Positions 29,089-47,849 of a stretch of 64,000 nucleotides of DNA are shown here, piece by piece (within the stretch, counting starts at the first letter, position 1; each line of letters begins with the position of its first letter). The position numbers and the translations under genes were made by a program. The stretch is taken from the NCBI GenBank assembly GCA_016182845.1, contig JACPFT010000005.1, forward strand, positions 248,001-312,000, given 5' to 3'. Origin of the DNA: Gammaproteobacteria bacterium. Its GTDB lineage: Bacteria; Pseudomonadota; Gammaproteobacteria; Enterobacterales; Permianibacteraceae. Under the pieces are notes generated by a model. It had not been told where the DNA came from and ran no database searches. It saw nothing but the letters and a program-made list of their open reading frames with translations.

Positions 29089-30447
29089 ATGTCGGGCATT
29101 CTGTGGAACGGTTTCTTCCTGGTGGTCGCACTCGGCCTCCTGGTGACCGTGCACGAGTTCGGCCATTTCTGGGTGGCGAGGCGCTGTGGCGTCAAGGTCT
29201 TGTGCTTCTCCATCGGTTTCGGCACGCCGCTGTGGCGGCGTATCGGTCGCGACGGCACGGAATACCAGATCGCCGCCATTCCCCTGGGCGGTTATGTGAA
29301 GATGCTGGACGAGCGCGAGGCGCCGGTCGATGCGGCCGAGCTTCAGTTCGCATTCAACCGCCAGCCCGTAGTGTCGCGCATCGCCATCGTCGCGGCAGGA
29401 CCGCTGTGCAACTTCCTGTTCGCCATCCTGGCCTATTCCCTGATGTACATGGTGGGCATCACCACCCTGAAGCCGATCCTGGGGGACATCGATCCCGCCA
29501 GCATCGCCGGCCGCGCGGGCTTACGGGCCGGCGAGCAGATTCAGCGCATGGACGGCCGCGAGATCCAGAGCTGGGAGGATGTGACTTTCGCCGCCGTGGC
29601 GCGGGTGGGGGAAACCACGCCCCTGGTCCTGGAGACCCGCGTCAAGGGGACGGACGGAACCCGCCGCTACGAGCTGGATATTTCCGCCTGGCGGCTGAAT
29701 GGTAAGGAGCCCGACGTCCTGGGCTCCCTGGGCCTGAAACCAGTGGAGCCGAAGATTCCGGCCGTGCTCGCCGAAGTGGCGGAGAACGAACCAGCCGGCA
29801 AGGCCGGCCTGAAGATCGGCGACAAAGTGCTGAGCGTCGACGGCAAGCCCGTCGCGGACTGGCCGGAGCTGGTGCGACAGATCACGGCCAGCCCGGAACG
29901 AAAGCTGAGGCTGACAGTCGAACGGGCGGGCCAAAAACAGCACCTGGATGTCACGCCCCGTGCCGCGACCGGCGAGGACGGCAAGCCCATCGGCCTCCTG
30001 GGCGTGCGCCCGGTGGTGCCGGCGGGATTGTCGGACCTGCAACATCGGGTACAATTCGGACCCCTGGACGCGGTCTGGCGCGGTGCCGGCAAGACCTGGG
30101 AAGTCAGCGTGCTGAGCCTCAAGATGCTGGGCAAGCTGGTGACCGGTTCGGTGCCGGTGGACAGCATCAGCGGCCCCATCAGCATCGCTCAGGGAGCTGG
30201 CGCCTCGGCCCGCATCGGGCTTGAGTATTTTTTGAGCTTTTTGGCCCTCATTAGCATAAATCTAGGGTTAATCAACCTCTTGCCGATTCCGGTGCTGGAT
30301 GGGGGGCACTTAATGTATTACCTTATTGAGTCGGTTCGAGGCCGGCCATTATCCGAGCGCATGCAGGAATGGGGACTCAGACTGGGCATGAGCCTGGTGC
30401 TGGGATTGATGTTGGTGGCGGTCTATAACGACCTGGCGCGCCTGTAA
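29089..30447 (+). CDS. rseP: RIP metalloprotease RseP
   Basis: Site-2 intramembrane zinc protease that cleaves RseA and releases sigma E in the envelope stress response. The 452-residue product has the zinc motif HEFGH in its first helix (residues about 20-24), two tandem periplasmic PDZ domains (about 115-200 and 215-305), and the third zinc ligand region LLPIPVLDGGH. GGAGGTAAGTG precedes ATG 29089; GTG 29086 is an alternative. It sits immediately before bamA, whose folding state feeds the same stress pathway. Confidence 0.97.
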   Translation: MSGILWNGFFLVVALGLLVTVHEFGHFWVARRCGVKVLCFSIGFGTPLWRRIGRDGTEYQIAAIPLGGYVKMLDEREAPVDAAELQFAFNRQPVVSRIAIVAAGPLCNFLFAILAYSLMYMVGITTLKPILGDIDPASIAGRAGLRAGEQIQRMDGREIQSWEDVTFAAVARVGETTPLVLETRVKGTDGTRRYELDISAWRLNGKEPDVLGSLGLKPVEPKIPAVLAEVAENEPAGKAGLKIGDKVLSVDGKPVADWPELVRQITASPERKLRLTVERAGQKQHLDVTPRAATGEDGKPIGLLGVRPVVPAGLSDLQHRVQFGPLDAVWRGAGKTWEVSVLSLKMLGKLVTGSVPVDSISGPISIAQGAGASARIGLEYFLSFLALISINLGLINLLPIPVLDGGHLMYYLIESVRGRPLSERMQEWGLRLGMSLVLGLMLVAVYNDLARL

Positions 30448-30476
30448 AAAAACCGACCGAAGTGAAGACAACAAGA

Positions 30477-32948
30477 ATGCTTATCAAGCGATCCGCCCTG
30501 GCCGTCGCCCTCAGCCTGGCCGCCGTCTCGAATGCCTATGCCGTGGAACCCTTCGTCGTGCGCGATATCCGCGTGGAAGGCCTGCAGCGCGTCGAGCTCG
30601 GCACCTTCCATACCTATCTGCCGCTCAAGGTCGGCGAGTCGGTCGATGACTCGCGCATTCCGGCCATCATCCGCGCCCTGTACCGCTCCGGATCCTTCGA
30701 GAACATCGAAGTGGCCCGCTCCGGCGACACTATGGTGTTCAATGTGCTTGAGCGTCCTACCATCTCCGCGTTGAGCTTTACCGGCAACAAGCAGCTCAAG
30801 ACCGAGGACTTGGAGAAGGGCCTGAAAAGCTCCGGTATCGCCAAGGGCGAAGTTCTGAGCTCGGCCGTGCTCTCCAAGATCGAACAGGAGCTGGAAAGCC
30901 AGTATTTCTCCCGAGGCCGTTATTCGGCCAAGGTCAAGGCGGTGGTCAACCGCCTGCCGCGCAACCGAGTCGACATCAAGTTCGTCATCAACGAGGGTGA
31001 GGCGGCCACCATCCGCCAGATCAACATCGTCGGCAACCGCGTATTCGGTGACGAGGCGCTGCTCAAGCGCTTCGAACTCACGACCGGCGGCTTGTTTTCC
31101 TTCTTCACCGACGACAACCAATACGCCAAGGAAAAACTCTCCGGCGACTTGGAAAAGTTGCGCTCCTATTACCTCGACCGCGGTTATGCCAAGTTCCAGG
31201 TAGTGTCCACCCAGGTGTCCATTACGCCGGACAAGCATGGGGTTTTTATCACCATCAACATCGACGAGGGTGAAAAGTACAAGGTCAAGGATTTCAAGCT
31301 GTCCGGCAGTCTGATTCTTCCGGAGGCCGAACTTCGGCAGCTGGTTCCGCTGGGCGAGGGCAGCACCTACTCCGGCGCCCTGATCACCTTCGCCGAAGAA
31401 GCCATCACCAACCGCCTGGGCGCCGAGGGCTATGGTTTCGCCAAGGTGCAGACCATTCCGGAAATCGACGATGCAAAGAAGGAAGTGTCTCTGAACTTCT
31501 TCGTTAATCCGGGCAATCGCGTCTACGTGCGCCGCGTCAACTTCAAGGGTAATAACAAGACCGCCGACGAGGTCCTGCGCCGCGAAATGCGCCAGATGGA
31601 AGGCGGCTGGCTCAATAACCAGCAGGTTGAACTGTCCAAGACCCGATTGGAGCGCCTCAGCTACTTCGAGGAGGTCAAGGTGGAGACGCCGCGCCTGCCC
31701 GGTAGCGACGACCAGGTAGACATCGAGTTCGAAGTGAAGGAGCGCGCTTCGGGCCAGCTTTCCGGCGGTATCGGCTATTCCCAGAACGGCGGCTTTCTGT
31801 TCAATGCCGGCATTTCCCAGGATAACTTCCTGGGCAGCGGCAAACAGGTTGCCCTGTCGGTCGACAAGAGTTCCTTTCTGGATAACATCAATATCGGCTA
31901 TCAGGACCCGTATTTCACCGATGATGGTGTCAGCCAGGGATTCAGCATTTTCTACCGTAAGACCGACCTTGGCAGGCTGCGTGTCTCTACCTACACCACC
32001 GACACTACTGGTGGCCAGATCGATTTCGGCCTGCCGCTCAACGAATTCAACCGGATTGGCACCTCGCTGACCCTGCAAAACACTACCATCAATGCCCGCG
32101 GCTTCGTCTCCGAGCAGGTTGAAGATTTCTTCAAATCCTACAACCAGGACCCGGGCATAGACTCCTCGCTGAATTTCGATGTGTTGAAGGTTGGTGCCTT
32201 CTGGCAACATAACAGCCTCAATCGCGGGATTTTCCCCACGGCCGGCAATTTCCAATCGCTGTCGGCCGATGTGGCGACACCAGCGGGCGACTTGGAGTAT
32301 TACAAACTCAACTATCGCCTGCGCCACTACATCCCGATTTCCCGTTCCGGCTGGTCGGTCTATCTGCGCGGCGAACTGGGTTATGGCAATGGTCTGGGCG
32401 AAACCGATTCCGGCGCCGACGCCAAGCTGCCATTTTTCGAAAACTATTTCGCAGGCGGCTTCAACACCGTGCGTGGTTTCGAGGACAACGTGATTGGTCC
32501 CCACGAAATCCAGCGTCTGGCGACAACGACATCCGACCCGAGCGGTACGGGCCCGAGTATCCCTCTGCCCCCGCCTTTCGATTTTGTCACCGACCCGACC
32601 CGTACGCGAACGATTGGCGGTAATGCGCGTGCCTTGGCCAGCGCTGAGCTGATTTTCCCGACGCCTTTCGCTGCAGGCAATAATTCGGTTCGCACCAGCC
32701 TGTTCGTCGATGCCGGCCATGTCTGGGATACGGAGTTCGATCGCGAGCGCTTCAGTGATTTGTCGGCAACGGAGTTCGCCAAGATTCCGGATTACTCCGA
32801 TGCCGGGGAATTCCGCGTGTCCGCCGGTTTCGCGGTGCAGTGGATTTCCCCGCTGGCGCCGATGACTTTCAGCGTCTCCAAGCCGCTCAAAGATGTGGAA
32901 GGGGATGACACGAAGGTCTTCCAGTTTAACTTAGGTCAGTCTTTCTAG
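30477..32948 (+). CDS. bamA: Outer membrane protein assembly factor BamA
   Basis: Core of the BAM complex that folds beta-barrel proteins into the outer membrane. The signal peptide MLIKRSALAVALSLAAVSNAYA is followed by five POTRA domains (about residues 24-420; the first starts FVVRDIRVEGLQR) and a C-terminal 16-strand barrel. The protein ends in the barrel signature FQFNLGQSF with terminal Phe. A GTG at 30462 would add five residues; no start has a clear ribosome site. The partner BamC is at 57.7 kb. The barrel holds a Pro-rich loop (SIPLPPPFDF) near residue 695. Confidence 0.97.
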   Translation: MLIKRSALAVALSLAAVSNAYAVEPFVVRDIRVEGLQRVELGTFHTYLPLKVGESVDDSRIPAIIRALYRSGSFENIEVARSGDTMVFNVLERPTISALSFTGNKQLKTEDLEKGLKSSGIAKGEVLSSAVLSKIEQELESQYFSRGRYSAKVKAVVNRLPRNRVDIKFVINEGEAATIRQINIVGNRVFGDEALLKRFELTTGGLFSFFTDDNQYAKEKLSGDLEKLRSYYLDRGYAKFQVVSTQVSITPDKHGVFITINIDEGEKYKVKDFKLSGSLILPEAELRQLVPLGEGSTYSGALITFAEEAITNRLGAEGYGFAKVQTIPEIDDAKKEVSLNFFVNPGNRVYVRRVNFKGNNKTADEVLRREMRQMEGGWLNNQQVELSKTRLERLSYFEEVKVETPRLPGSDDQVDIEFEVKERASGQLSGGIGYSQNGGFLFNAGISQDNFLGSGKQVALSVDKSSFLDNINIGYQDPYFTDDGVSQGFSIFYRKTDLGRLRVSTYTTDTTGGQIDFGLPLNEFNRIGTSLTLQNTTINARGFVSEQVEDFFKSYNQDPGIDSSLNFDVLKVGAFWQHNSLNRGIFPTAGNFQSLSADVATPAGDLEYYKLNYRLRHYIPISRSGWSVYLRGELGYGNGLGETDSGADAKLPFFENYFAGGFNTVRGFEDNVIGPHEIQRLATTTSDPSGTGPSIPLPPPFDFVTDPTRTRTIGGNARALASAELIFPTPFAAGNNSVRTSLFVDAGHVWDTEFDRERFSDLSATEFAKIPDYSDAGEFRVSAGFAVQWISPLAPMTFSVSKPLKDVEGDDTKVFQFNLGQSF

Positions 32949-32976
32949 TTCGATTTCAAGGATTAAGGAGCCCATT

Positions 32977-33492
32977 TTGAACAAGCTTATCCGTATTGGT
33001 GCGCTGGTTGCCGGTCTGGCGGCTGCGATGCCGATGGCTTCCATCGCCGCTGATCTGAAAATCGGCGTGGTAAACATGCGCGAAGTCATGGCCAAGGCCC
33101 CTCAGCGCGAGGCGATCACCGCGATGCTGAAGAAGGAATTCACGACTCGCCAGGATGAACTGCGCAAGTTGGACAAGCAGATCCAGGGCAAGGTCGAGAA
33201 GGCCCAGCGCGATGCGCCGGTGCTTTCCGCTCAGCAGAAGATCGACATCAAGCGCGAGCTGGAGCAGCTGAATACTGACTTCCGCCTGCGCCAGAAGGCC
33301 TTCGAGGAAGATCTGGGGCGCCGTGACAACGAGGAAGGCCGCAAGCTGTACCTCAAGGTCACCCAGGCCATCGAAAACATCGCCAAGAACGGTGGTTACG
33401 ACATTATCCTGGCTCGCGAAACCGTTCCCTACATCAGCGAACGCGCGGATATCACCAAAGATGTGCTCGGCGCTCTGAGCACCCGCAAGTAA
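32977..33492 (+). CDS. skp: Periplasmic chaperone Skp/OmpH
   Basis: A 171-residue periplasmic chaperone that carries unfolded outer-membrane proteins to BamA. The signal peptide ends MASIAA, then DLKIGVVNMREVM (the short beta body) and long coiled-coil arms at about residues 50-120 (KEFTTRQDELRKLDKQIQGK and following heptads), closing with the C-terminal strand GGYDIILAR. The start codon is TTG, but AAGGAG six bases upstream makes it convincing. It lies between bamA and lpxD as in E. coli. Confidence 0.95.
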   Translation: MNKLIRIGALVAGLAAAMPMASIAADLKIGVVNMREVMAKAPQREAITAMLKKEFTTRQDELRKLDKQIQGKVEKAQRDAPVLSAQQKIDIKRELEQLNTDFRLRQKAFEEDLGRRDNEEGRKLYLKVTQAIENIAKNGGYDIILARETVPYISERADITKDVLGALSTRK

Positions 33493-33504
33493 GCGAGCGG
33501 GCGG

Positions 33505-34518
33505 ATGTTGACGCTAGGAGCCATAGCCGAACACCTGGGCGCCGCGTGCCGAGGCGACTCCGGCCGCCTAATCGACGGAGTGGCGACCCTGAGTTCGGCC
33601 GGGCCTAGCCAGATCGCGTTTCTGTCCAACCCGGCGTATCGGGCGCAACTGGCCGCCACGAAGGCGGGCGCGGTGATTCTCGCGCCCACCCTGGCGGATG
33701 AGTGCCCGGTGGATGCCCTGCTGATGCAAAACCCCTACCTGGGATTTGCGCAAGTGGCCAGCTTGCTCGACCGGTCGCCGCCTCCCGCCACTGGATGCCA
33801 TGGCTCGGCCATCGTGCATCCGACGGCGGTAGTCGAGCCTTCGGCCCATTTGGGACCGAACTGCGTCGTCGAAGCCGGAGCCTATGTCGGCGCCAACGTG
33901 GCGGTAGGCGCGGGCTGCGTGGTCGGCCCGGGGGCTCGGGTTGGCGCGGATAGCCGTTTGTGGGCCAATGTCACGCTGTACCACGGGGTTCGCATCGGCG
34001 AGCGCTGTATTTTGCATAGCGGGGTGGTCATCGGCAGCGACGGCTTCGGCTTTGCTCAAGATCGTGGCCAATGGGTCAAAATTCCGCAAACCGGTACCGT
34101 CATCGTCGAAGATGAAGTGGAGATCGGCGCCAATACGGTGATCGACCGCGGCGCCCTGGACGATACCCGCATCGGTCGCGGCGTGAAGCTGGATAATTTG
34201 ATTCAAGTAGCGCACAACGTGCAGATTGGCGAGAACACGGCCATCGCGGGATGTACGGCCATCGCCGGCAGCACGCGCGTCGGCCGGAATTGCACCATCG
34301 CCGGCGGAGTGGGGATTGTGGGCCACATCGAGATCGCCGATCGCGTGCATGTGGCGGCCATGACCCTAGTCACCAAATCGATTACCGAAGCCGGCGCAGT
34401 GGCTTCAGGGACCGGGATGTTGCCGGTCGCCGAATGGAAAAAGAGTGTTGCTCGTTTCCGCCAGTTGGACGATATGGCACGCCGGCTGCGGCGCCTCGAA
34501 GCACTCATACATAAATAA
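33505..34518 (+). CDS. lpxD: UDP-3-O-(3-hydroxyacyl)glucosamine N-acyltransferase
   Basis: Third step of lipid A synthesis. The 337 residues consist of an N-terminal uridine-binding domain (about 1-100), a left-handed beta-helix of hexapeptides (about 105-300; VHPTAVVEPSAHLGPNCVVE), and a C-terminal helix (FRQLDDMARRLRRLEALI). The catalytic His is in LIQVAHNVQIG. It lies 12 bases after skp and is part of the lpxD-fabZ-lpxA-lpxB set. Confidence 0.97.
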   Translation: MLTLGAIAEHLGAACRGDSGRLIDGVATLSSAGPSQIAFLSNPAYRAQLAATKAGAVILAPTLADECPVDALLMQNPYLGFAQVASLLDRSPPPATGCHGSAIVHPTAVVEPSAHLGPNCVVEAGAYVGANVAVGAGCVVGPGARVGADSRLWANVTLYHGVRIGERCILHSGVVIGSDGFGFAQDRGQWVKIPQTGTVIVEDEVEIGANTVIDRGALDDTRIGRGVKLDNLIQVAHNVQIGENTAIAGCTAIAGSTRVGRNCTIAGGVGIVGHIEIADRVHVAAMTLVTKSITEAGAVASGTGMLPVAEWKKSVARFRQLDDMARRLRRLEALIHK

Positions 34519-34547
34519 GCGGCCGACTGGCCGTTATGGATTAGGAC

Positions 34548-35015
34548 ATGACTGTGACCAACGAACTGAACAGCCTCGATATTTACGAGGTGCTCAAGCA
34601 TCTTCCCCACCGCTATCCGTTCCTTCTGGTGGATCGGGTGTTGGACTACAAGCCGGGCGAGTACTTGGTTGCCGTCAAGAACGTGACCTATAACGAACCG
34701 TTTTTCCCCGGGCATTTCCCTCATCGTCCGGTGATGCCGGGCGTGTTGATTCTCGAAGCCATGGCGCAGGCGACGGGGATCCTGGCGTTCAAGACGACGG
34801 GTACGGTTCCGGACGAAAAGTCCCTGTATTATTTTGTCGGCATCGACGATGCGCGCTTTAAGTTGCCGGTGGAACCGGGCGACCAGATGATCATGGAAGT
34901 CCGTGTGATGACCACTAAGCGCGGCGTGTGGAAATTCTCGGCCGAGGCCAAGGTCGATGGCAAGGTCGCGTGTTCCGCCGTGCTGATGTGCGCCCAAAAG
35001 GAGATCCTGCCGTGA
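34548..35015 (+). CDS. fabZ: (3R)-hydroxyacyl-ACP dehydratase FabZ
   Basis: Fatty-acid elongation dehydratase of 155 residues with a hot-dog fold. The catalytic His is in [14 protein letters not shown] and the catalytic Glu in [11 protein letters not shown]. The N-terminal [20 protein letters not shown] is typical of FabZ rather than FabA. Its position between lpxD and lpxA reflects shared use of 3-hydroxyacyl-ACP by lipid A and phospholipid synthesis. The stop overlaps the lpxA start by four bases (GTGA). Confidence 0.97.
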
Positions 35016-35782
35016 TTCATCCGACCGCGATTATCGATCCCAAGGCGCGGATCGGTGTCGATGTCGAGATCGGGCCTTACTCCATCGTGGGTCCCGATGT
35101 CGAAATCGGCGATGGAACCTGGATTGGTCCCCATGTGGTATTGAAGGGGCCGACCGTCATCGGTCGCGGTAACAAGATTTTCCAGTTCGCCTCGGTGGGC
35201 GAGGATTGCCAGGACAAGAAATTCCGTGGTGAACCGACCCGCCTGGTGATCGGCGACAACAACGTGATTCGCGAGTCGGTGACGATTCATCGCGGCACAA
35301 CTCAGGATCAGGGCCTTACGCAGATCGGCAACAACAATCTGCTCATGGCCTATGTGCATGTCGCCCATGATTGCATGGTTGGCAATGGCGTTATTCTCGC
35401 CAATAACGCCACGCTGGCCGGCCATGTTCAAGTCGGCGATTTCGTGATTCTCGGCGGTTTTACCGGCGTGCACCAATTCTGCCATATCGGCGCCCATGCC
35501 TTTTCGGCGGTCAGTTCCGTGGTGCTGAAGGATGTGCCGCCGTATCTGATGATCGCCGGTCATAATGCCGAGCCCCACGGCCTCAATACCGAAGGCTTGC
35601 GCCGCCGGGGCTATTCGGCGGAAACCATCGCCAACCTGCGTCGCGCCTACAAGATCATTTACCGCCAGGGTCTGACCGTTCAGGCGGCGCTGCCGCAGCT
35701 GGAGGCCATGATCGGCGAGTGCCCGGAAGTCCAGCTGTTCGTGGATTTCCTGAAGACCTCGACGCGCGGAATTATTCGTTAA
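35012..35782 (+). CDS. lpxA: UDP-N-acetylglucosamine acyltransferase
   Basis: First enzyme of lipid A synthesis, 256 residues (E. coli 262). It is a left-handed beta-helix of hexapeptides (residues about 1-185, from [20 protein letters not shown]), with the catalytic His in [13 protein letters not shown] and a C-terminal helical domain ([18 protein letters not shown]). The start is GTG, overlapping fabZ by GTGA and preceded by AAAGGAG. A palindromic repeat separates it from lpxB, an unusual interruption. Confidence 0.97.
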
Positions 35783-35788
35783 CAAGAA

Positions 35789-35866
35789 TTAACCGCAAAG
35801 GCCGCTAAGACCGCGAAGGATCTCGTCATGCGATTTCTTTGCGGCCTTAGCGGCCTTTGCGGTTCA
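35789..35866. repeat. Palindromic repeat, copy 2 (lpxA-lpxB spacer)
   Basis: The left arm AACCGCAAAGGCCGCTAAG... (35791-35818) pairs with the right arm CTTTGCGGCCTTAGCGG... (35837-35864) across an 18-base loop. The arms are made of 9-base units of the form CGC-N-AAG-N. It is the same family as the elements at 17987 and 42648. It lies inside the lpx gene run, ending 16 bases before the lpxB start. Confidence 0.88.
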
Positions 35867-35882
35867 TCAATATGGTGTTTTC

Positions 35883-37040
35883 ATGGGCGAAAACGTAAAG
35901 CACGTAGCCATTGTCGCCGGGGAAATGTCCGGGGATTTATTGGGCGCCGGCCTGATGGACGCCCTGCGTCAGCGTTTCCCCAACGCGCGGTTCTCCGGGA
36001 TAGGCGGACCGCAGATGTTGGCGCGTGGCTTCGAGAGTCACTACTCCATGGACCGCTTGGCGGTGATGGGGCTGGTTGAGGTCCTGGGGCGTCTGCCTGA
36101 GCTCCTGCGCATTCGCAAATCCCTGCGAGAACGCTATCTTGCCGAAAGGCCCGACGTGTTCATCGGCATCGATTCGCCGGATTTCAATCTGGGGCTGGAG
36201 CTGGCTCTGCGCCGGGGCGGCGTGAAGACCGTGCATTATGTCAGCCCGTCGATCTGGGCCTGGCGGCCGGAGCGTGTGCACAAGATCCGCGAGGCGGTCG
36301 AACACGTGCTTTGCCTGTTGCCTTTCGAACCCGCGTTTTACGAGAAGGCGGCGGTGCCCGCGACCTTTGTCGGTCATCCGCTGGCCGACATGCTTCCGGT
36401 CGAGAGCGAGCAACGCGTCGCCCGCCAGACACTGGGCCTCCCGGAGGACGGTTTCGTCGTGGCCTTGCTGCCCGGTAGCCGGGGCACGGAGCTGAAATTC
36501 CTGGCCGAACCGATGATTCGCGCGGCGCGGCTCTGCCTGCAGCGTTTTCCCGATCTGCAATTCGTTGCGCCCATGGTCAACGGGCGGCGCCAGCAGCAGT
36601 TCGAGGCCGTCTTGAACCGCATCGATCCGGATCTGCCGGTGCGCCTGGTGTCCGGTCGTTCCCGCGAGGTCATGGCCGCCGCCGACGTGGTGCTCTTGGC
36701 CTCGGGAACGGCGACCCTGGAGGCCATGCTGCTCAAGCGGCCCATGGTCGTGGCCTACCGCATGGCCTGGCTGACGGTGAAGCTCCTGCGGCCGAAGATC
36801 TCGCTCAAGCATTTTTCCCTGCCCAATCTGCTGGCTGGCGAGGCCCTGGTGCCGGAGCTCTTGCAGGAGGACTGCACGGCGGAAAAGCTCGCCGAGGCGG
36901 TGTTGTCCTGGCTGGAGCATCCGGAGCGCGGCGAGGCCCTGCGGGCGCGCTTCACGGCGATGCATCAGGCCCTGCGCCAGAACGCCAATGTTCGCGCCGC
37001 CGAGGTGGTAGCTGGTCTGGCCGAAGGAGTGAAACCGTGA
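35883..37040 (+). CDS. lpxB: Lipid-A-disaccharide synthase
   Basis: GT19 glycosyltransferase joining the two glucosamine units of lipid A, peripheral on the inner membrane, 385 residues. It shows the N-terminal [13 protein letters not shown] motif, the [10 protein letters not shown] and [13 protein letters not shown] segments, and the C-terminal donor site [13 protein letters not shown]. Unlike its neighbours it has no visible Shine-Dalgarno sequence (TATGGTGTTTTC before ATG) and starts just after a large palindromic repeat. Translation could depend on that structure. It overlaps rnhB by four bases. Confidence 0.96.
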
Positions 37041-37612
37041 ATTCCGCGATCCTGGTGGCCGGCATCGACGAGGTGGGACGCGGTCCCCTGGCGGGCCCCG
37101 TGATGGCGGCGGCGGTGATCCTGGATCCGGCTAAGCCCATCACCGGCCTGACCGATTCCAAGAAACTTAGCGAGAAGCAGCGCGAGCGCCTGTTCCCGTT
37201 GATCCAGGAGCGCGCCTTGGCCTGGGCCGTGGGCCGTGCCGAGGTCGAGGAAATCGACGCCATCAATATTCTTCAGGCCTCGCTACTGGCCATGCAGCGT
37301 GCCGTCGCCGGCCTGCCCATCGCGCCGGTCCATGCCTTGGTGGACGGTAACCGCTGCCCGGCCTTGCCATGCACGGCCCAAGCCATCGTCAAGGGCGATC
37401 TGACCGAGCCGGCCATCAGCGCCGCGTCCATACTCGCCAAGGTCGTGCGCGACCGGGAAATGGCCGAGCTGGACACCGTCTACCCGGGTTATGGTCTGGC
37501 CAAGCATGCCGGTTACCCGACGGCCAGCCACTTGGAAGCCCTTGCTCGTCTGGGCGTAAGCCCCATCCACCGGCGCAGCTTTGGGCCGGTCAAACGCTTG
37601 TTGATGCGATAA
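37037..37612 (+). CDS. rnhB: Ribonuclease HII
   Basis: Removes RNA from RNA/DNA hybrids and single ribonucleotides from DNA. The 191 residues contain the catalytic acid motif [15 protein letters not shown] (Asp, Glu), the Asp in ALVDGNRCP, and a later Asp in VVRDREM. The start is GTG, overlapping the lpxB stop (GTGA). The 3' end overlaps the convergent DUF2182 gene by 23 bases (37590-37612), so no terminator separates them. Confidence 0.97.
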
Positions 37613-38342
37613 GCGACCACAGGCCGACCGCCACCAGAAGGCCGGCGCTGCCATAGCGCCAGCCCTGGCTCATGGGCAGAATTTTCTCCAGCAGGACCCA
37701 CAGGCTTAAGGCCGCCATGGCCCAGAGGTTCATGGCGCCGGCGACTAGCAGAAGCAGCATCAGCGCCCAGCTGCAGCCCAGGCAATAGAGGCCGTGACCT
37801 AGACCCAGGCGCAAGGCGCCGCCATGACCGTGGCGGCTGAGATATCCGAGGGGGCTTTGGCATTGCCGCTGACAGCTGGTTTTCAGCCGGCTCAGCTGGT
37901 ACAGCCCAGCCAGCAGCAGGGTGAAACCGGACCAGGCCGCGCCCAGACGCAGATGCCAATCCAGGAACCCCAGGCTCTCGCCCAGGGCCTGTAGGCCCGT
38001 CATCAGCAGGGCGAAGCCGCTCCACACCAACGTATAACCGAGCACGAACCAACCCAGTTTGGCGAAGCGCCGTGCGTCCCGGGCCAGGCAGCGGCGGTAG
38101 AGCAGGAAGACCGGTAGGGCTGCCGGCAGCATCATGGCCTGCATCATGATGAGCCACATCAGTGCCGCCGCCAGGGCTTCGGGGCCTGTCCAGTCGGTGG
38201 GCGGCATGGCCATCTCGCCCATGGCGGCCATGTCGTTGGCCGCCTCGACCTGCCACCACCAGGCGGCCAGCGCCAGGGTCAGCACCAAGCCGGCGAAGCC
38301 CCAGTCCTGCCAATCCAGGCGCTTAAGTGTGGTGCCAGTCAT
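37590..38342 (-). CDS. DUF2182 predicted metal-binding membrane protein
   Basis: A 250-residue polytopic membrane protein with about six to seven hydrophobic segments. A Met-rich stretch (AMGEMAMPP and [13 protein letters not shown]) and cysteines in KTSCQRQCQ and [10 protein letters not shown] fit the DUF2182 family, described only as predicted metal-binding integral membrane proteins. The start overlaps the DUF1326 gene by four bases, so the two are coupled. Met and Cys clusters suggest a soft metal such as copper, which is inference. The pair interrupts the rnhB-dnaE order on the opposite strand. Confidence 0.85.
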
Positions 38343-38980
38343 GCGCCAGAACGGAACAGTCCATGGGGGCCAACATCCATGGTCCAGAGCATGGCGTTGG
38401 TCCGGCTATGGCTCATGGGGATCGCACCCTCCGTGCGGAATGTGGCGCTGGCGCAGTCGGTGTCGGTGAATTCGAAACCCTCGGGCAGCACGACCTTGGC
38501 GCGGTGCACCGAACCGTCCATGGGGTTGCGGATCGGCTCGGCCGAGCCCTCCAGGGCGCCGGGCACGCTGATGCGCGCGCTCAAAGAGGCCCGGTCCGAC
38601 TCCACGCGAACCGGGAGGAAGCGTGGCTCGTGCATGGTCTCCACGGTGCTGGCGAAGATGGCGAAGAAACAGGTGGGTTCCTGTTCCTGGCCGGTGAGCA
38701 GCATGAGCAGGGCCTGGCGCTGCGCCTCGGTGGCGCGCTCGTCGATGAAGGCCTGGGCCTGGCCATGGCCTTCGTGGATGGCGCCCGGCCAGGCGAAGAC
38801 GCAGGCGACGTGCAGATCGTCCAGTCGGGTGTCGCCGAAGTGGCCTTCGGTGATATGAAAGCCCACCGCCGCTTCGCAGCAGCCTCGTGTGGGCGGGGCA
38901 TTGAACTGGCAGGGGCAGCCGTAATCGCAGTTGCACAGGTCCACGGCGGGGCCGCTCAGGCGCCAATCGACATAAGCCAT
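38339..38980 (-). CDS. DUF1326 cysteine-rich protein
   Basis: A 213-residue soluble protein starting MAYVDWRLSGPAVDLCNCDYGCPCQF. The spaced cysteines C-N-C-(x)3-C-P-C followed by GCCEAA are the hallmark of the DUF1326 family and look like a metal or cofactor site. No signal peptide is present, so it is probably cytoplasmic. It overlaps the DUF2182 membrane gene by four bases; the two families commonly occur together, implying a joint unknown function. It is divergent from dnaE. Confidence 0.85.
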   Translation of the reverse strand: MAYVDWRLSGPAVDLCNCDYGCPCQFNAPPTRGCCEAAVGFHITEGHFGDTRLDDLHVACVFAWPGAIHEGHGQAQAFIDERATEAQRQALLMLLTGQEQEPTCFFAIFASTVETMHEPRFLPVRVESDRASLSARISVPGALEGSAEPIRNPMDGSVHRAKVVLPEGFEFTDTDCASATFRTEGAIPMSHSRTNAMLWTMDVGPHGLFRSGA

Positions 38981-39151
38981 GATGTGCTCCTTGGGTGAGG
39001 CGATACCTGTTGATGAGCTTAGATCCGGGGTCGGGGACGATTAGACCGAATGGAAGCCTGCGGGTCCGGCTTAGGGTCCATGGATAATAAGCGGCGAGTG
39101 CATGAAGGCGGGCGAAGCCCTAGAATAGCCGCCTGCTTCCGAGGATTCCCC

Positions 39152-42100
39152 ATGCCCCAGCCCTTCGTCCATTTGCGCCTGCACACCGAGTTCTCCATGA
39201 CCGATGGCTTGGTCCTGGTCAAGCCCCTGGTGAAGACCTGCGCGAAGCTGGGCATGCCCGCCGTGGCGGTCACCGATCAGGGCAATTTCTGCGCCGCGGT
39301 CAAGTTCTACAAGGCCGCCAACGATGCCGGGGTCAAGCCCATCCTGGGCGTCGACGCCTGGTTGCGCAGCCCGGACTTGCCGGATGGCCTGAGCAGGGTC
39401 GTGTTCCTGTGCATGAGCCAACAGGGCTACAAGAACCTCACCGTGCTCATCTCGCGCGGCTATATGCGCAACCAGCTGGACGGCCGCGCCATCATCGAAC
39501 GCGACTGGCTGCCGGAACTGGCGGAGGGGCTCATCGTCCTGTCCGGGGGGCGGGAAGGCGAGATCGGCCAGGCTCTCCTGGCCGGCGATGGGGGCCTCGC
39601 GGCGCAGATGCTGGGCTTCTGGAATGCCCATTTCCACAACCGCTTCTATCTGGAGCTGCAGCGTACCGGCCGGCCCGACGAGGAGCGTTATATCCATGCC
39701 GTGATCGGCCTGGCCCAGGGCGCCAATACGCCGGTCGTGGCCACCAATGACGTGCGCTTCATCGCCCCGGAAGACTTCGAGGCCCACGAGGTCCGGGTAT
39801 GCATCGCCGACGGCCGCGTCCTGGACGATCCGCGCCGGCCGCGGTTGTACAGCGACCAGCAGTATCTGCGCACGCCGGAGGAGATGGCCGAGCTGTTCTC
39901 GGACATCCCGGAGGCCCTGGAAAACAGCCTGGAGATCGCCAAGCGCTGTTCGGCGGAGCTGCGCCTGGGCAAGTACTTCCTGCCTAATTTCCCGGTGCCG
40001 GACGGCATGACCATCGACGAGTTCTTCCGCGCCGAGTCGGAGCAGGGCCTGGAGGCGCGCCTGGATTTCCTGATCGGCCGCGACGATCCGGAGTTCGCCG
40101 AGAAGCGCAAACGCTACGACGAGCGCCTGGACATCGAGATCAACTGCATCATCCAGATGGGTTTCCCCGGCTACTTCCTGATCGTGGCCGACTTCATCCA
40201 ATGGGCCAAGAACAACGGCGTGCCCGTGGGGCCGGGGCGCGGTTCGGGCGCCGGCTCCCTAGTCGCCTATGCCCTCAAGATCACCGATCTGGATCCGCTG
40301 GCCTACGACCTGCTGTTCGAGCGATTCCTCAATCCCGAGCGCGTGTCCATGCCCGACTTCGACGTGGACTTCTGCATGGACGGCCGCGACCGGGTCATCG
40401 ACTACGTGGCCCAGAAATACGGTCGTGAGTCGGTGTCCCAGATCATGACCTTCGGCACCATGGCCGCCAAGGCCGTGATCCGCGACGTGGGCCGCGTCCT
40501 GGGCCAGCCCTATGGCATGGTGGACAAGCTGTCCAAGCTCATTCCCACCGAGCTGGACATGACCCTGGACAAGGCCTACGAGCAGGAAGAGCAGCTTAGG
40601 CAGAAGATCGCCGACGACGAGAACGTGCGCGAGATCTGGGAGTACGCCAAGAAGCTGGAAGGCGTGACCCGTAACTCCGGCAAACACGCCGGCGGCGTGG
40701 TGATCTCCCCGGGCCTCATCACCGACTTCGCGCCGCTGTACACGGACGGGCAGGGCGGCGGCCTGGTGACCCAGTTCGACAAGGACGACGTGGAATCGGC
40801 CGGCCTGGTGAAGTTCGACTTCCTGGGTCTGCGCACCCTGACCATCATCGACTGGGCCCTGGACACCATCAACACGCGCCGGCGCCGCGTCGGCGACGCC
40901 GACATCGACATCGCCCGCATTCCCCTGGACGATGCGGGCACCTTCGAGCTGCTCAAGAAGTTCGAGACCACGGCGGTGTTCCAGCTGGAATCCCGGGGCA
41001 TGAAGGATCTGATCCGCCGCCTGCAGCCGTCCACTTTCGAAGACATTGTCGCACTCGTGGCCCTGTTCCGCCCCGGTCCCCTGGAATCGGGCATGGTCGA
41101 AGACTTCATCAATCGCAAGCACGGCCGTGCCGAGGTGGCCTATCCGACGACGGAGCTGCACCACCCCGACCTGGAGCCGGTGCTCAGACCCACCTATGGC
41201 GTGATCGTCTACCAGGAACAGGTGATGCAGATCGCCCAGGTCCTGGGTGGCTATTCCCTGGGCGGTGCCGACATGCTGCGCCGCGCCATGGGCAAGAAGA
41301 AGCCCGAGGAGATGGCCAAGCAGCGCATCACCTTCGTCGAGGGCGCGCGAGCCAAGGGCATACCCGATGCGCAATCGGGCGGCATCTTCGACCTCATGGA
41401 GAAGTTCGCCGGTTACGGCTTCAACAAGTCCCACTCGGCCGCCTATGCCTATGTCTCCTACCAGACCGCCTGGCTGAAGCGGCACTATCCTTCCGCCTTC
41501 ATGGCCGCCGTGTTGTCCGCCGACATGGCCAACACCGACAAGGTGGTGACCCTCATCGAGGAATGCCGGGCCATGGGCCGGCGCATCTCGCCGCCGGACG
41601 TCAACACCGGCCTGATGAAGTTCACCGTCGACGACGAAGATGTCATCGTCTACGGTATCGGCGCGATCCGAGGCGTGGGTGAGAATGCCATCGAGAACCT
41701 GATCGCCGAGCGCCGGGCCCAGGGCCGCTACCGGGACCTCTTCGATTTCTGCAATCGCGTCGACCTGCGCAAGGTCAACCGCCGCGTGCTGGAGGCCTTG
41801 ATCAAGGCCGGCGCCATGGACAAGCTGGGACCCAGCCGAGCCGGCATGATGGCCAGCCTGGACTCGGCCATCGCCGCCGCCGAGCAGCGCAGCCGCGATC
41901 TGGCCCAGGGCCAGAACGATCTCTTCGGCGGACCCATGCCCGGCGCGGCGGACAGCAAGCAGCCCCAGTTCGTGCACGGGAAGGAATGGCCCGAGGCCAT
42001 ACGTCTGCAGAACGAGAGGGAAACCCTGGGCCTCTATCTCACCGGCCACCCCATCGACCGTTACTTAAGCGAAGTGCGCCGCTTCGCGCGCAACCGCATC

Positions 42101-42637
42101 GCCGATCTGGTGCCCACCGGCCGGGGCAAGAACACCTGGGCCGCCGGCCTGGTGGTGGCCACGCGCACGGTCAAGACCAAGAAGGGCGACAACCTCGGCA
42201 TCGTCACCCTGGACGACCGTTCCGGGCGCATCGACGTGGTGGCCTTCGGCGAGGCCTACGAGACCTACCGCGACCGCCTGGTCAAGGACGCCATCCTGGT
42301 GGTGGAGGGCGAGGTCAGCACCGACGACTTCAACGGCGGCTTGCGCATGAGCGCCGCCAAGATCATGGACATCATCGAGGCTCGCGAGCGCTTCGCCGAG
42401 GCCCTGTGGCTGGAGCTGGACGGCCGGTCGCTGGATGCCGCTCGCCTCGCCAGGCTGGAGGCCATCCTGGAGCCCTTCCGGCCCGGCAGCTGCGCCATCA
42501 AAGCCGCTTACCGCAATGCCGGCGCCGCCTGCGAGCTGGTTTTCGGCAACACCTGGCGCGTGCGTCCCGCCGACGAGTTGATCCTGCGCGTCGAGGAGCT
42601 GCTGGGACCGGGGTCGGTGACGGTGCGCTACGGCTAG
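39152..42637 (+). CDS. dnaE: DNA polymerase III alpha subunit
   Basis: Replicative polymerase catalytic subunit, 1161 residues (E. coli 1160). The N-terminal PHP domain (about 1-270) begins with [14 protein letters not shown]. The palm/fingers hold the catalytic Asp pair in [13 protein letters not shown] (about residue 405). The [13 protein letters not shown]-like segment ([17 protein letters not shown]) follows, then the tandem helix-hairpin-helix region and an OB fold (about 990-1070). ATG 39152 follows GAGGA; the frame extends 34 codons further upstream without family support. It lies between the lpx-rnhB and accA genes as in E. coli. A palindromic repeat follows. Confidence 0.98.
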
Positions 42638-42647
42638 GAAAAGAGAA

Positions 42648-42757
42648 TCAACCGCCAAGGCGCGAAGGCGCGAAGTAAGAAAATGCAAGGTTCTGGTCGG
42701 ATGTGTGTCCGATGTCTATGAGTTTTTCCTTGGCGCCTTTGCGCCTTGGCGGTCAAT
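42648..42757. repeat. Palindromic repeat, copy 3 (dnaE-accA spacer)
   Basis: The left arm TCAACCGCCAAGGCGCGAAG (from 42648) continues one more unit to 42675. The right arm (42728-42757) is CCTTGGCGCCTTTGCGCC followed by TTGGCGG. A 52-base spacer between the arms has no gene but contains GTCGGATGTGTGTCCGAT, a small inner hairpin at about 42694-42712. It is the same family as the copies at 17987 and 35789. Confidence 0.88.
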
Positions 42758-42799
42758 TCTTCTTCACTTTTCCCGGTACCCGTCCCCCGCCGCAACGGT

Positions 42800-42805
42800 T
42801 ATAAT
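42800..42805 (+). promoter_or_regulatory. Candidate -10 element for accA
   Basis: A perfect TATAAT lies 37 bases before the accA ATG, just beyond the repeat. No good -35 is visible 16-18 bases upstream, so the promoter is tentative. Confidence 0.4.
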
Positions 42806-42841
42806 TCGGCACTTTTTCTTCCCGACACTGGGGATAGGTGC

Positions 42842-43792
<951 letters not shown>

Positions 43793-43836
43793 GTCGAAGC
43801 GGGGCCGTAAGGCTCCGTTTGTTTTCCGGTATCGCC

Positions 43837-45198
43837 ATGCCGCCGCCATCCCGATTCGCCGCCCTGTCGAGCCGCCTGGACGCCTTGCCGGATGCTCCGC
43901 TCTTGCTGGCTTACAGCGGCGGGGCCGATTCCGAGGCGCTGCTGCGACTTCTGCTCCTGCGGCTAGGGGCATCGTCTCCGCGCCGCCTGCGCCTGGTCCA
44001 TGTGCACCACGGCCTCTCGCCCAATGCCGACGCCTGGGAGGCGCACTGCGCCCAGCGCGCCGAGTCCCTGGGCATTCCCTTCCTCTGCCGGCATGTGCAC
44101 TTGGAGCTAACCGGCGGCGACAGTCTGGAAGCTCAGGCTCGCGCCGCGCGCTACGGCGCCATGGCCAAGGCCATGCAGGCCGGCGAGATCCTGCTCACCG
44201 CCCATCATCGCGACGATCAGGCCGAGACCGTGTTGCTGCGCTTGCTGCGCGGCAGCGGCACCGCCGGCCTCGCGGCCCTGCGCGCGTGGCAGGACTTCGG
44301 GCCGGGCCGGTTGTGGCGGCCCTTGCTGGGGATTTCCGGGTCCTTGCTGCGGGGCTGGCTTGCCGAGCAGGGGCTGAGCTGGCTGGAAGACGAGAGCAAT
44401 GCCGCCGCCCGTTTCGATCGCAATTTCCTGCGCCATGAGATCCTGCCCCGCTTGAGCGTGCGCTGGTCGGCTGCCGCCGCTAGCCTGGCCCGCCACGCCG
44501 CCCAGGCCGCAGAGGACGAGGCCTTGCTGGGCGAACTGGCCCGCGCCGATCTGGTTCCGGCACGCCAGGCGCGGCCCGAGTGTCTGACGATGGCTCCTCT
44601 GCTGAGCCTGAGCCCGGCCCGGGAGCGCAATGCCCTGCGTCTGTGGTTGAAGGAACTCGGCTGGCAGATGCCCAGCCGGGCGCAGATGGACGTTCTCAGC
44701 GGCGAGGTGCTACGGGCGGCGGAGGATGCAAAGGCCTGCTTGCGCCTGGCGGAGGGCGAGCTGCGCGCCTGGCGCGGCAGCTTGTTCGCGGTTCCGATGC
44801 TTACTGAGTTGGGGCAGGTCGCTGCCCAGGCCTGGCCCTGGCCGGAACCGATCCGCTTGTCTAGCGGCCTTGGCTGGCTGAAGGCCCAACCGGCCGAGAC
44901 AGGACTGCGGGCACCGGCACCCGGCGAGGCGGTGAGCCTGAGATACCGGGCGGGCGGCGAACGCTGCCGACCAGCCGGACGCGACCATTCCCAGAGCCTG
45001 AAGAAGCTGTTCCAGGAGCACGGGGTTCCGCCCTGGCTGCGCGAGCGCCTGCCCCTCGTGTACTTCGGCGAGGAACTGGTGGCCGTGGCCGGGGTGTTCG
45101 TCTGCGCGCAGGCGCTGGCCTTGCCGGGCGAGCCGGCCTGGAGCCTGGAGCTATTTCAGCCGGCGGGAATTTGTTCCTGGATCGAGGCATGCAGATAG
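43837..45198 (+). CDS. tilS: tRNA(Ile)-lysidine synthase
   Basis: Converts C34 of the CAU-anticodon tRNA-Ile to lysidine so it reads AUA. The 453 residues have the N-terminal PP-loop LAYSGGADSEALL (SGGxDS) at about residue 25, the VHVHHGLSPNADAWE and AHHRDDQAETVLLRLLRG segments, and a C-terminal domain including SLKKLFQEHGVPPWLRERLPL. ATG 43837 is preferred to a TTG at 43789 that overlaps the accA stop. Its 3' end overlaps the convergent GGDEF/EAL gene by 43 bases. Confidence 0.95.
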   Translation: MPPPSRFAALSSRLDALPDAPLLLAYSGGADSEALLRLLLLRLGASSPRRLRLVHVHHGLSPNADAWEAHCAQRAESLGIPFLCRHVHLELTGGDSLEAQARAARYGAMAKAMQAGEILLTAHHRDDQAETVLLRLLRGSGTAGLAALRAWQDFGPGRLWRPLLGISGSLLRGWLAEQGLSWLEDESNAAARFDRNFLRHEILPRLSVRWSAAAASLARHAAQAAEDEALLGELARADLVPARQARPECLTMAPLLSLSPARERNALRLWLKELGWQMPSRAQMDVLSGEVLRAAEDAKACLRLAEGELRAWRGSLFAVPMLTELGQVAAQAWPWPEPIRLSSGLGWLKAQPAETGLRAPAPGEAVSLRYRAGGERCRPAGRDHSQSLKKLFQEHGVPPWLRERLPLVYFGEELVAVAGVFVCAQALALPGEPAWSLELFQPAGICSWIEACR

Positions 45199-47849
45199 CG
45201 TTCCGCATCGGCCGCCGCCAGGGGCCGGGCGAAATAATAGCCCTGACCGTATTCGCAGCCCAGGGCTTCCAGGGCCTGGCATTGGGCGATGTTTTCTATC
45301 CCCTCCGCGACGACGCTTAAGCCTAGGCTGGCGGCCAGAGCGCGTATCGTGCGCACGATCACCTGGTGCTGACTTTCCGATTCCAGGTCGGAAATGAAGC
45401 TGCGGTCGATCTTGAGCACATCCAGGGGGAAGCGGTGGAGATAGCTCAGGGACGAATAGCCCGTGCCGAAGTCGTCCAGGAGGATTTGCGCGCCCAAGGC
45501 CCGCAGGCCATCCAGCATTTCCCGGGCCGATTCGAAATTCTGCATCAGCAGGCTTTCGGTGATCTCCAGCTTCAGGTGTTCGGGCGCGAGGCCGGTGTCG
45601 AGCAGGACCCGCTCGATGTCGTGCAGCAACTGCGCCGAGAATTGGCGGCTGGACAGGTTGACGCTGATACTCAGCTCGGCGAGGCGCGGATCCTGGCGCT
45701 GCCAGGCATGGAGCTGGCGGCAGGCCTGGCGCAGGATGCAGAGGCCCAGTTCGTGGATCAGGCCGGTTTCCTCGGCAATGGGAATGAACACCACGGGCGA
45801 GACCGGGCCGCGTACCGGATCCTGCCAGCGCGCCAGGGCCTCGAAGCCGACTACCCGGCCGCTGGCCAGGTGCAGGATGGGCTGGTAGTAGGGCTCGATG
45901 AGGCCGTTCTCGATGGCCTGGCGCAAATCGTTTTCCAGCTTCAGGCGGTCGATGGCCTGGCTGTGCAGGGCCGGATCGAAGATCGCGTAGCGGGCCTTGC
46001 CCTCGGCCTTGGCGTGATACATGGCCGTGTCGGCGTCGCGCAACAACTCTTCAGGGCGCGAGTAATCGAAGCTGGAATAGGTGATGCCTATGCTGGTGGA
46101 GATGAACACCTGGTGATCGCCCAGCTGGAAGGAGTCGGTCAGGCGCGAGAGGATGCGGCCGGCGACGATTTTCGCGTCGGTTTCGCTTTCCGTGCCTTCC
46201 ACGAGGATGCAGAACTCGTCGCCCCCTAGGCGCGCCACCGTGTCGTTGAGTCGGATACAAGTTAGCAGGCGCCGGCTGACTTCGATCAGCAGCTTGTCGC
46301 CCACCAGATGCCCCAGGCTGTCATTGACGATCTTGAAGCGATCCAAATCCAGGTAGAGCACGGCGAATTCGGCCGAGGCATGGCGCTTGCGCCTGGCGAT
46401 GGCATGCTCCAACCGGTCGGTGAACAGGGCGCGGTTGGGCAGATCGGTCAGGGCGTCGTGCAGGGCGTCGTGCAGCAGCTTGGTCTCGATGCGCCGGCGT
46501 TCGGCGATTTCGGTCTGCAGAAATTCATTGGCGGCGGACAATTCCAGGGTGCGCTCGACGACCTTGCGCTCCAGCTCGTCGTTGGCCTGTTGCAGCTGCT
46601 CGTGGGCCGCGCGCAGTTCCTCGGCGTCGCGGCGGCGGGTCAGGGCCGTGGCGATGTGTTGGGACACGAAGTTGAGCACTTCCACATCGCGCTCGCTGAA
46701 GCGCACGTTCTCATCGTAACTCTGTACCACCAGCACGCCGATATTCTCGGCCTTGTCCTGCAGTGGAATACCCAGCCACGTCGTCGAGCGGGTGCCGATG
46801 GCGGGGTGGTCAGGGGCGACGATCTGGCGGTTTTCCCGGTTCACCAACAGCGGATGCCCCTGCACGAGCACGCGCCCGGTCAGGGTATCGCTGGACAAAT
46901 GCAGGACCGATTGCGGCGGGTTCTTGTCGAAGCGGTCCACGAAATAGGGGAAGCTCAGCTCGTCCCGATTCCGGTCATAGAGCGCGATATAGAAATTCTC
47001 GGCATACATAAGCTCGCCGACGATGGCATGCAGGGCCCGGTAGAATTCGTCCAGGGCGGCTTCCGACGACGTGAGATCGGCGATGCGGAACAGGGCCGCC
47101 TGCAGGCGCTCCGCCCGCTCCCGCTCGGCGATTTGCCGCTCCAGAACCGCGTTGGCGCGGCTTAGTTCCGCCGTGCGCTCCTGGACGCGCCGCTCCAATT
47201 CCTCGTGGGCCTTGAGCTGGCTTTCGTCCAGTTGCCGGCGCTGCAGGGCGGTGGCGATGTGCTGGGACACGAAGAGCAGGAGATCTTCGTCCTCCCGGCT
47301 GTAAACGGTATCGGCCACATAGGTTTGCAGGATCAGGACGCCGATGGTCTTGTCGCCGACCTTGAGTGGTATGCCCAGCCAGTCCACGCTGTCGGCGCCC
47401 ATGCTGCGCAGTTCGCCGCGCCGCTCCAGTTCCAGGATGGCCGGACCATCCACATGCACGACCTGACCGGCCTTGAGCACATAACCGGTCAGGGAGCCGC
47501 GCATTTTCTCGGCCGGAATACTGGCCAGGGTTTTCAGGTCCAGCTCGTCGACCGTGTCGACGAAGTACACGAAGCTGAAGGCGTCCTTCTGTTCGTCGTA
47601 GAGGGCGATGGCGAAATTCTTGGCATACATCAGCTCGCCGACGACCGCATGCAGCTCGCGGTAGAAGCTGGGCATGTCCATTTCCGCGCTGGTCAGATCG
47701 GCAATACGGTAGAGCGCCGCCTGCAAGTGGCGAGCCTTCTCCCGCTCGTCGGCGATGGTCTCCAGGACCGACACGCGGGCGCGCAGCTCTATGAGCTCGG
47801 AGGGTAGTTGTTCCCGTGGGCTTGGTTTATCGATCAAGGGCTTAGTCAT
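45156..47849 (-). CDS. GAF-GAF-GGDEF-EAL cyclic di-GMP signalling protein
   Basis: A cytoplasmic protein of about 897 residues without membrane segments. Order: short coiled coil, GAF domain (about 30-190), coiled coil, second GAF (about 245-400), coiled coil (DELERKVVERTLELSAAN), GGDEF (about 460-620), EAL (about 635-885). The two GAF domains are clear duplicates (ALYRIADLTSAEMDMPSFYR against ALFRIADLTSSEAALDEFYR). The cyclase motif GGDEF is intact with an inhibitory RxxD site (RLND) five residues before it. The phosphodiesterase motifs GFEALARW, EITES, DDFGTGYSSL and KIDRSF are also intact. Both activities are possible, controlled by GAF ligands. ATG 47849 follows GGAGC. Confidence 0.93.
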   Translation of the reverse strand: MTKPLIDKPSPREQLPSELIELRARVSVLETIADEREKARHLQAALYRIADLTSAEMDMPSFYRELHAVVGELMYAKNFAIALYDEQKDAFSFVYFVDTVDELDLKTLASIPAEKMRGSLTGYVLKAGQVVHVDGPAILELERRGELRSMGADSVDWLGIPLKVGDKTIGVLILQTYVADTVYSREDEDLLLFVSQHIATALQRRQLDESQLKAHEELERRVQERTAELSRANAVLERQIAERERAERLQAALFRIADLTSSEAALDEFYRALHAIVGELMYAENFYIALYDRNRDELSFPYFVDRFDKNPPQSVLHLSSDTLTGRVLVQGHPLLVNRENRQIVAPDHPAIGTRSTTWLGIPLQDKAENIGVLVVQSYDENVRFSERDVEVLNFVSQHIATALTRRRDAEELRAAHEQLQQANDELERKVVERTLELSAANEFLQTEIAERRRIETKLLHDALHDALTDLPNRALFTDRLEHAIARRKRHASAEFAVLYLDLDRFKIVNDSLGHLVGDKLLIEVSRRLLTCIRLNDTVARLGGDEFCILVEGTESETDAKIVAGRILSRLTDSFQLGDHQVFISTSIGITYSSFDYSRPEELLRDADTAMYHAKAEGKARYAIFDPALHSQAIDRLKLENDLRQAIENGLIEPYYQPILHLASGRVVGFEALARWQDPVRGPVSPVVFIPIAEETGLIHELGLCILRQACRQLHAWQRQDPRLAELSISVNLSSRQFSAQLLHDIERVLLDTGLAPEHLKLEITESLLMQNFESAREMLDGLRALGAQILLDDFGTGYSSLSYLHRFPLDVLKIDRSFISDLESESQHQVIVRTIRALAASLGLSVVAEGIENIAQCQALEALGCEYGQGYYFARPLAAADAERYLHASIQEQIPAG

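Follow-up and report, generated by a model that had tools for sequence, protein, structure and literature searches.

Between rnhB and dnaE of a gammaproteobacterium of the family Permianibacteraceae lies a pair of overlapping genes on the opposite strand, which raises the question of what two such proteins do together and how their genes came to stand there. We analyzed this locus within a 64,000-nucleotide stretch of contig JACPFT010000005.1 (assembly GCA_016182845.1, positions 248,001 to 312,000), hereafter the window, whose own coordinates are used unless another locus is named. An earlier note, made from the letters of the window, had described a DUF2182–DUF1326 gene pair at 37590–38980 with a four-base overlap; both open reading frames and the shared ATGA are confirmed. 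The features are as follows.

37037–37612, plus strand: rnhB, left neighbor of the pair (open reading frame, comparison with relatives).
37590–37612, unstranded: stretch in which the PpoB2 gene and rnhB overlap at their 3′ ends (open reading frames).
37590–38342, minus strand: DUF2182 (PpoB2) gene, 250 residues, membrane copper-chaperone family (open reading frame, PF09948, predicted structure).
37770–37784, minus strand: codons of C187, C190 and S191 of PpoB2, helix 5 (sequence, alignment).
37860–37874, minus strand: codons of C157 to C161 of PpoB2, loop 4, basic and probably cytoplasmic (alignments, loop charges).
38130–38159, minus strand: codons of M62 to M71 of PpoB2, Met-rich helix 2 (model, alignments).
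38339–38342, minus strand: four-base overlap of the DUF1326 and PpoB2 genes, ATGA (sequence).
38339–38980, minus strand: DUF1326 gene, 213 residues (open reading frame, PF07040, predicted structure).
38876–38878, minus strand: codon of C35, the fifth invariant Cys of DUF1326 (alignment; position computed from the open reading frame).
38909–38935, minus strand: codons of CNCDYGCPC, C16 to C24 of DUF1326 (alignment, motif search).
39152–42637, plus strand: dnaE, right neighbor, started at the Met that aligns with relatives (open reading frame, relatives).

Both proteins match their Pfam families far above the gathering cut-offs: PF07040 on DUF1326 at E = 2.9e-54 (184.3 bits, cut-off 25) and PF09948 on DUF2182 at E = 1.2e-50 (172.5 bits, cut-off 28.7). 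The 3.8-Mb genome has a single copy of each, and the degenerate DNA pattern for CNCDYGCPC matches once in the window and never in shuffles. Neither protein matched an NCBIfam model up to E = 1 or a PDB sequence. The earlier note had called both families uncharacterized, which does not hold for DUF2182: Pfam's current name for PF09948 is PpoB2, "Copper chaperone", and a 2010 review (PMC2855505) presents PpoB2 as taking part in the transfer of copper to a tyrosinase in Marinomonas. For DUF1326 the description stands. The open-licence literature searched yielded no published function or activity for it, including any enzyme activity unrelated to metals of the kind that the earlier note had considered as a counter-argument; DUF1326, DUF2182, PF07040, PF09948 and COG5588 go unnamed in that literature, and COG5486 appears only in PMC2855505.

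The note had also supposed that the two families travel together, and they do. Across 349 genomes of the phylum, DUF1326 occurs in 40 and PpoB2 in 47 (45 over the cut-off; G128 and G297 under it), and all 40 DUF1326 genomes have PpoB2 (Fisher p about 1e-45, with relatedness ignored). At 50 of the 54 places with a DUF1326 gene, PpoB2 is a same-strand neighbor no more than 56 bp away; at the other four (L069, L070, L110 and L111) DUF1326 stands alone, and one of the 54 contains an internal stop. A second set of 148 loci was chosen for holding either gene and overlaps with the first in some species. Here 128 loci hold both genes, 127 of them within 300 bp and one at 331 bp, with DUF1326 first in 106 and PpoB2 first in 22; 13 hold only DUF1326 (two of the loci, L141 and L181, end soon after DUF1326) and 7 only PpoB2. 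The pairwise distances of the two proteins are correlated (Mantel r 0.674, 0 of 999 permutations, 110 dereplicated pairs), as expected of co-inherited genes, and shared descent alone could also give this correlation. The pair is also present in actinobacteria and a haloarchaeon.

Several loci depart from the simple arrangement. Eight (L128, L131, L157, L159, L166, L183, L193 and L197) carry two DUF1326 genes before one PpoB2 gene, a doubling that makes a heterodimer possible. On plasmid pSymA of Sinorhizobium meliloti (L125, 9848–10636), the one record opened among 58 Sinorhizobium plasmid records with a DUF1326 match, no PpoB2 is detectable within about 2 kb downstream of DUF1326. On pHG1 of Cupriavidus necator H16, a gene annotated as a GDCCVxC domain-containing (seleno)protein directly follows the pair (L207, 9464–9691).

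How the pair reached its present place is suggested by the relatives. In the window 1539 bp separate rnhB from dnaE; in 16 of 17 relatives the two genes adjoin, with −1 to 197 bp between them, so the pair does interrupt this neighborhood, as the earlier note proposed; the seventeenth relative (G002) has no dnaE within 1488 bp of rnhB. Of 119 genomes drawn as relatives, the window's own included, just two have DUF1326, G000 and G071; in G071 the pair and rnhB are about 0.5 Mb apart. These observations agree with the later arrival that the note envisaged and support insertion of the pair between rnhB and dnaE. Base composition shows no break that would signal foreign origin, and no tRNA that would mark a mobile element is present at 30000–46000. 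In G002, a member of the same family, an open reading frame on the opposite strand that looks trypsin-like by eye follows rnhB (L215, 2188–3477), and the junction may take inserts repeatedly. PpoB2 occurs in one further genome of the 119, G017, which belongs to the order of the window's organism; its copy is broken (L123, about 8990–9390), and the genome has no DUF1326.

The nearest copies, among the best 80 of 576 candidates, are those of Pseudomonas khazarica and Pseudomonas sp. BMS12, with DUF1326 about 70% identical; with only these 80 considered, nearer relatives may exist outside the collection. The tree groups the window with these two copies (100/100, bootstrap not fully settled). In both pseudomonads the pair is flanked by guaA, recognized by eye, and a multicopper oxidase gene. 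Against these two copies dN/dS is 0.13–0.25 for DUF1326 and 0.30–0.35 for PpoB2, at high dS, so both genes look maintained. The pair is real, widespread and maintained, a variant of the PpoB2 system in which DUF1326 is the partner.

The metal-type residue clusters noticed in the window recur in both families, as five invariant Cys in DUF1326 and as Met-rich and Cys-bearing helices in PpoB2. In alignment A1, built from DUF1326 rows taken from whole genomes by the Pfam model, C16, C18, C22, C24 and C35 are present in all 32 rows, the window included, and the loss of conservation that would have spoken against a metal role was not found. The only other invariant residues in A1 are W6, G46, L53 and G97, and the five Cys are the only invariant residues suited to a soft metal. 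The same five Cys occur in all 78 rows of alignment A4, which is not independent for C16 to C24 because many of its rows were found with the one of its two peptide patterns that includes the CNCDYGCPC motif. Their spacing is CxCx3CxCx10C, with the last interval 10 in most rows and longer in some. None of the 78 DUF1326 rows has a strong signal-peptide-like start by a hydropathy window (maximum 1.43), a crude check in which one multicopper oxidase reached 1.47, barely over the top DUF1326 value.

The predicted structure of DUF1326 is confident (pLDDT 96, pTM 0.91) and points to a fold similar, though not identical, to that of acetoacetate decarboxylases. At a threshold of E = 0.001 Foldseek gave five matches, every one an acetoacetate decarboxylase or its kin (best E 2.1e-5, probability 1.00), with TM-scores of 0.36–0.45 of the query and rmsd of 13–16 over long alignments. 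In VIA, whose own note calls best Z values of 7 to 8 common, the first 11 rows belong to the same group at Z 10.0 to 8.7, the next row falling to Z 7.1, and the best match has Z 10.0 and rmsd 3.5 over 158 aligned residues. A viral structure library gave nothing at E = 0.001. Among PDB sequences, the A1 profile brought up no decarboxylase at E values as high as 10; four cell-wall pilus matches to the DUF1326 profile (E 0.039–0.13) were taken as chance.

This predicted fold is what would favor DUF1326 being a metal-independent enzyme of the acetoacetate-decarboxylase type, with PpoB2 transporting a related small molecule. Acetoacetate decarboxylases use a catalytic Schiff-base lysine, and DUF1326 has no conserved Lys (the top Lys column reaches 44% in A1 and 36% in A4). 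A predicted decarboxylase-like fold that has no conserved Lys is new here. Its invariance is centered on Cys, and its partner family has a copper role; we therefore judge this enzymatic explanation improbable.

The model of PpoB2 has about seven long helices (pLDDT 87.8). Fold comparison with the PDB gave nothing convincing (best E 0.79 in Foldseek, best Z 5.1 in VIA), which shows neither novelty nor kinship, and the PpoB2 profile matched no PDB sequence. Over 66 rows, with loop and helix borders set by hand from the model, the N-terminus has on average 2.8 K plus R, loops 1–4 have 0.7, 3.5, 0.9 and 5.3, and loop 6 has 0.45. Met averages 3.4 in loop 1 and 6.7 in helix 2, and Cys averages 2.0 in loop 4 and 3.0 in helix 5. 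These charges suggest a topology with the Met residues towards the outside and the Cys residues towards the inside, into which loop 6, expected to be cytoplasmic, fits poorly with its K plus R of 0.45, apart from the conserved E219–K220. The layout leaves the direction of transfer unfixed, and export fits it as well.

We compared residues between 131 DUF1326-linked PpoB2 rows, which were not dereplicated, and 7 tyrosinase-linked rows. Both branches share W63, M66, M71, P73, W107, C161, C187, C191, W192, M195 and E219, and C157 and C190 are near-universal in the DUF1326-linked branch only. The second of these patterns, together with the fact that Cys-only ligands are not specific for copper, would suit a pair that handles another soft metal (zinc, mercury, arsenic or an Fe–S cluster), PpoB2 having switched metal in the DUF1326-linked branch. 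We consider such a switch quite unlikely, given that M66, M70, M71, C161, C187 and C191 are kept in most of the 7 rows of the copper-implicated branch and that Met favors Cu(I).

The window's own PpoB2 has five of these six residues, a set derived here and distinct from Pfam's definition of the family. Its sixth position, a new observation, is Ser191 (37770–37772). Of the 129 DUF1326-linked rows readable there, 128 have Cys, as do all 7 tyrosinase-linked rows. Mutation, adaptation and sequencing error are indistinguishable as its source, and S191 makes the full function of this particular copy uncertain.

PpoB2 is usually preceded by a gene for tyrosinase, DUF1326 or the thioredoxin-like DUF899, three soluble proteins without kinship to one another, so that the upstream partner is exchangeable; this, too, is new. 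Seven over-cut-off PpoB2 loci in the 349 genomes have no adjoining DUF1326 (L118–L124): tyrosinase precedes PpoB2 in L121 and L122 and DUF899 in L118, L119 and L120, L124 has neither, and in L123 PpoB2 is the broken copy. Among 21 plasmid stretches picked by hand from the match lists and opened, DUF2182 is preceded by DUF1326 in ten (L206–L210, L212, L236, L237, L239 and L243), by an annotated tyrosinase in four (L231, L232, L234 and L235) and by DUF899 in three (L240–L242). An unannotated frame that scores as tyrosinase precedes PpoB2 in L233, the tyrosinase of L238 is followed by a PpoB2 match that is partial and unannotated, and L125 and L211 hold DUF1326 without PpoB2. DUF899 lies immediately before PpoB2 at 7998–8798 of L118, 9886–10650 of L120 and 1650–2414 of L240, and both G416 and Paraburkholderia sprentiae carry the DUF899 and the DUF1326 versions. 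Tyrosinase-linked PpoB2 forms a separate group in the tree (5 rows, 100/100, bootstrap not fully settled). The tree's one DUF899-linked row sits on a very long branch, and its place is unsure. A tyrosinase search of the window's genome gave no match; the control genomes likewise gave none, and absence is therefore not established.

An outward route for the metal, in which DUF1326 would collect cytoplasmic Cu(I) and PpoB2 would carry it out, either to detoxify the cell or to supply copper oxidases that are exported, has to be weighed against the multicopper oxidases near some pairs. In the two nearest relatives (L126 and L127) a multicopper oxidase gene comes next, on the strand of the pair, and PF07732 occurs in 32 of 40 pair genomes versus 176 of 309 others (one-sided p 0.003; p 0.011 among complete genomes; genome size and kinship uncontrolled in both). 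Yet 8 of the 40 pair genomes have no PF07732 match, and in L067, L176 and L185 the oxidase is some genes away on the other strand. PMC2855505 indicates that PpoB2 does not serve the laccase PpoA, and seven tyrosinases checked with the crude hydropathy window have no strong hydrophobic start (0.43–1.27), compared with 2.17 and 2.33 for two exported-type oxidases and 1.47 for a third. Export is thus unlikely in our estimate. As an obligate client the multicopper oxidase was rejected, on the 8 genomes without a match, and a weak association remains; the window's genome has one, on another contig.

Other neighbors gave little. No copper-regulator site emerged: scanning upstream of the 128 pairs with the CueR-type consensus returned five sites with 3 mismatches and none better, against 22 with 3 mismatches and one with 2 in 384 mononucleotide shuffles (three each). 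Clustering of neighbors in the 148 loci, with genes called by a simple composition score and some of them shadow frames, produced no constant copper gene near the pair. A third operon gene was rejected, as neighbors are mostly lineage-bound (largest cluster, 18 loci).

Copper handling by the pair is probable on grounds of homology. Because PpoB2, with its published copper client, is attached to both DUF1326 and DUF899, the simplest reading is that both are metal recipients, and in it the five Cys would be the metal site of DUF1326; that DUF1326 receives copper is plausible. We give roughly even credence to a copper-transfer unit in which PpoB2 presents Cu(I) at the cytoplasmic face and DUF1326 receives it. 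PpoB2 would pass Cu(I) along its Met-rich helix (M66, M70 and M71) and the Cys of helix 5 and loop 4 (C187, C190/191 and C161), and would present it at the cytoplasmic face. DUF1326, soluble and without an export signal, would take the copper into its five-Cys cluster and would serve as a client, a chaperone or a store, filling the position of tyrosinase in the Marinomonas-type operon. Copper as the metal of DUF1326, the inward direction, a direct hand-over and the use of copper by DUF1326 are all suppositions of this scheme.

More tentatively, and with clearly less confidence, PpoB2 might be a general loader that delivers copper to dedicated cytoplasmic clients of at least three types (tyrosinase, DUF1326 and DUF899). 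DUF1326 would then represent a new class of copper protein in the cytoplasm, perhaps an enzyme, bearing a five-Cys Cu(I) cluster on an acetoacetate-decarboxylase-like scaffold. Few routes are known that feed copper to bacterial cytoplasmic proteins. For two uncharacterized families, DUF1326 and DUF899, pairing with PpoB2 yields a direct and testable prediction, that they receive metal, and the occurrence of DUF1326 in proteobacteria, actinobacteria and a haloarchaeon would give an answer a wide reach.

Among known systems, the cysteines recall the copper-sensing motif CXCX4CXCX2CX2H of yeast Mac1, as given in PMC4992176: both have two CxC steps and five Cys in a short stretch, but DUF1326 has the spacing CxCx3CxCx10C and no invariant His, so the likeness is a resemblance only. 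The overall fold predicted for DUF1326 is like that of the acetoacetate-decarboxylase-like structures 3bgt, 4zbo and MppR (4jmd), from which DUF1326 differs in lacking a profile match to them among PDB sequences and a conserved Lys and in having a five-Cys cluster instead. The DUF899–DUF2182 pairs of Paraburkholderia, Caballeronia and three further genomes have a soluble-protein gene just before PpoB2, as here, with overlapping genes in L120, L240 and L242; their partner is instead DUF899 (PF05988), a member of the thioredoxin-like clan according to PMC3091736 and unrelated to DUF1326 by Pfam. The PpoB1–PpoB2 tyrosinase and copper-chaperone operon of Marinomonas mediterranea (PMC2855505) likewise sets a PF09948 membrane gene beside a soluble-protein gene. 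In the comparison with tyrosinase-linked PpoB2, which rests on 7 rows from relatives, W107, C187, W192, M195 and E219 are common to all 7 rows, W63, M66, M71, P73 and C161 to 6 and M70 to 5, whereas C157 and C190 set the DUF1326-linked branch apart and S191 the window. The strict PpoB-type operon has tyrosinase immediately upstream of PpoB2; in the window, DUF1326 occupies that position.
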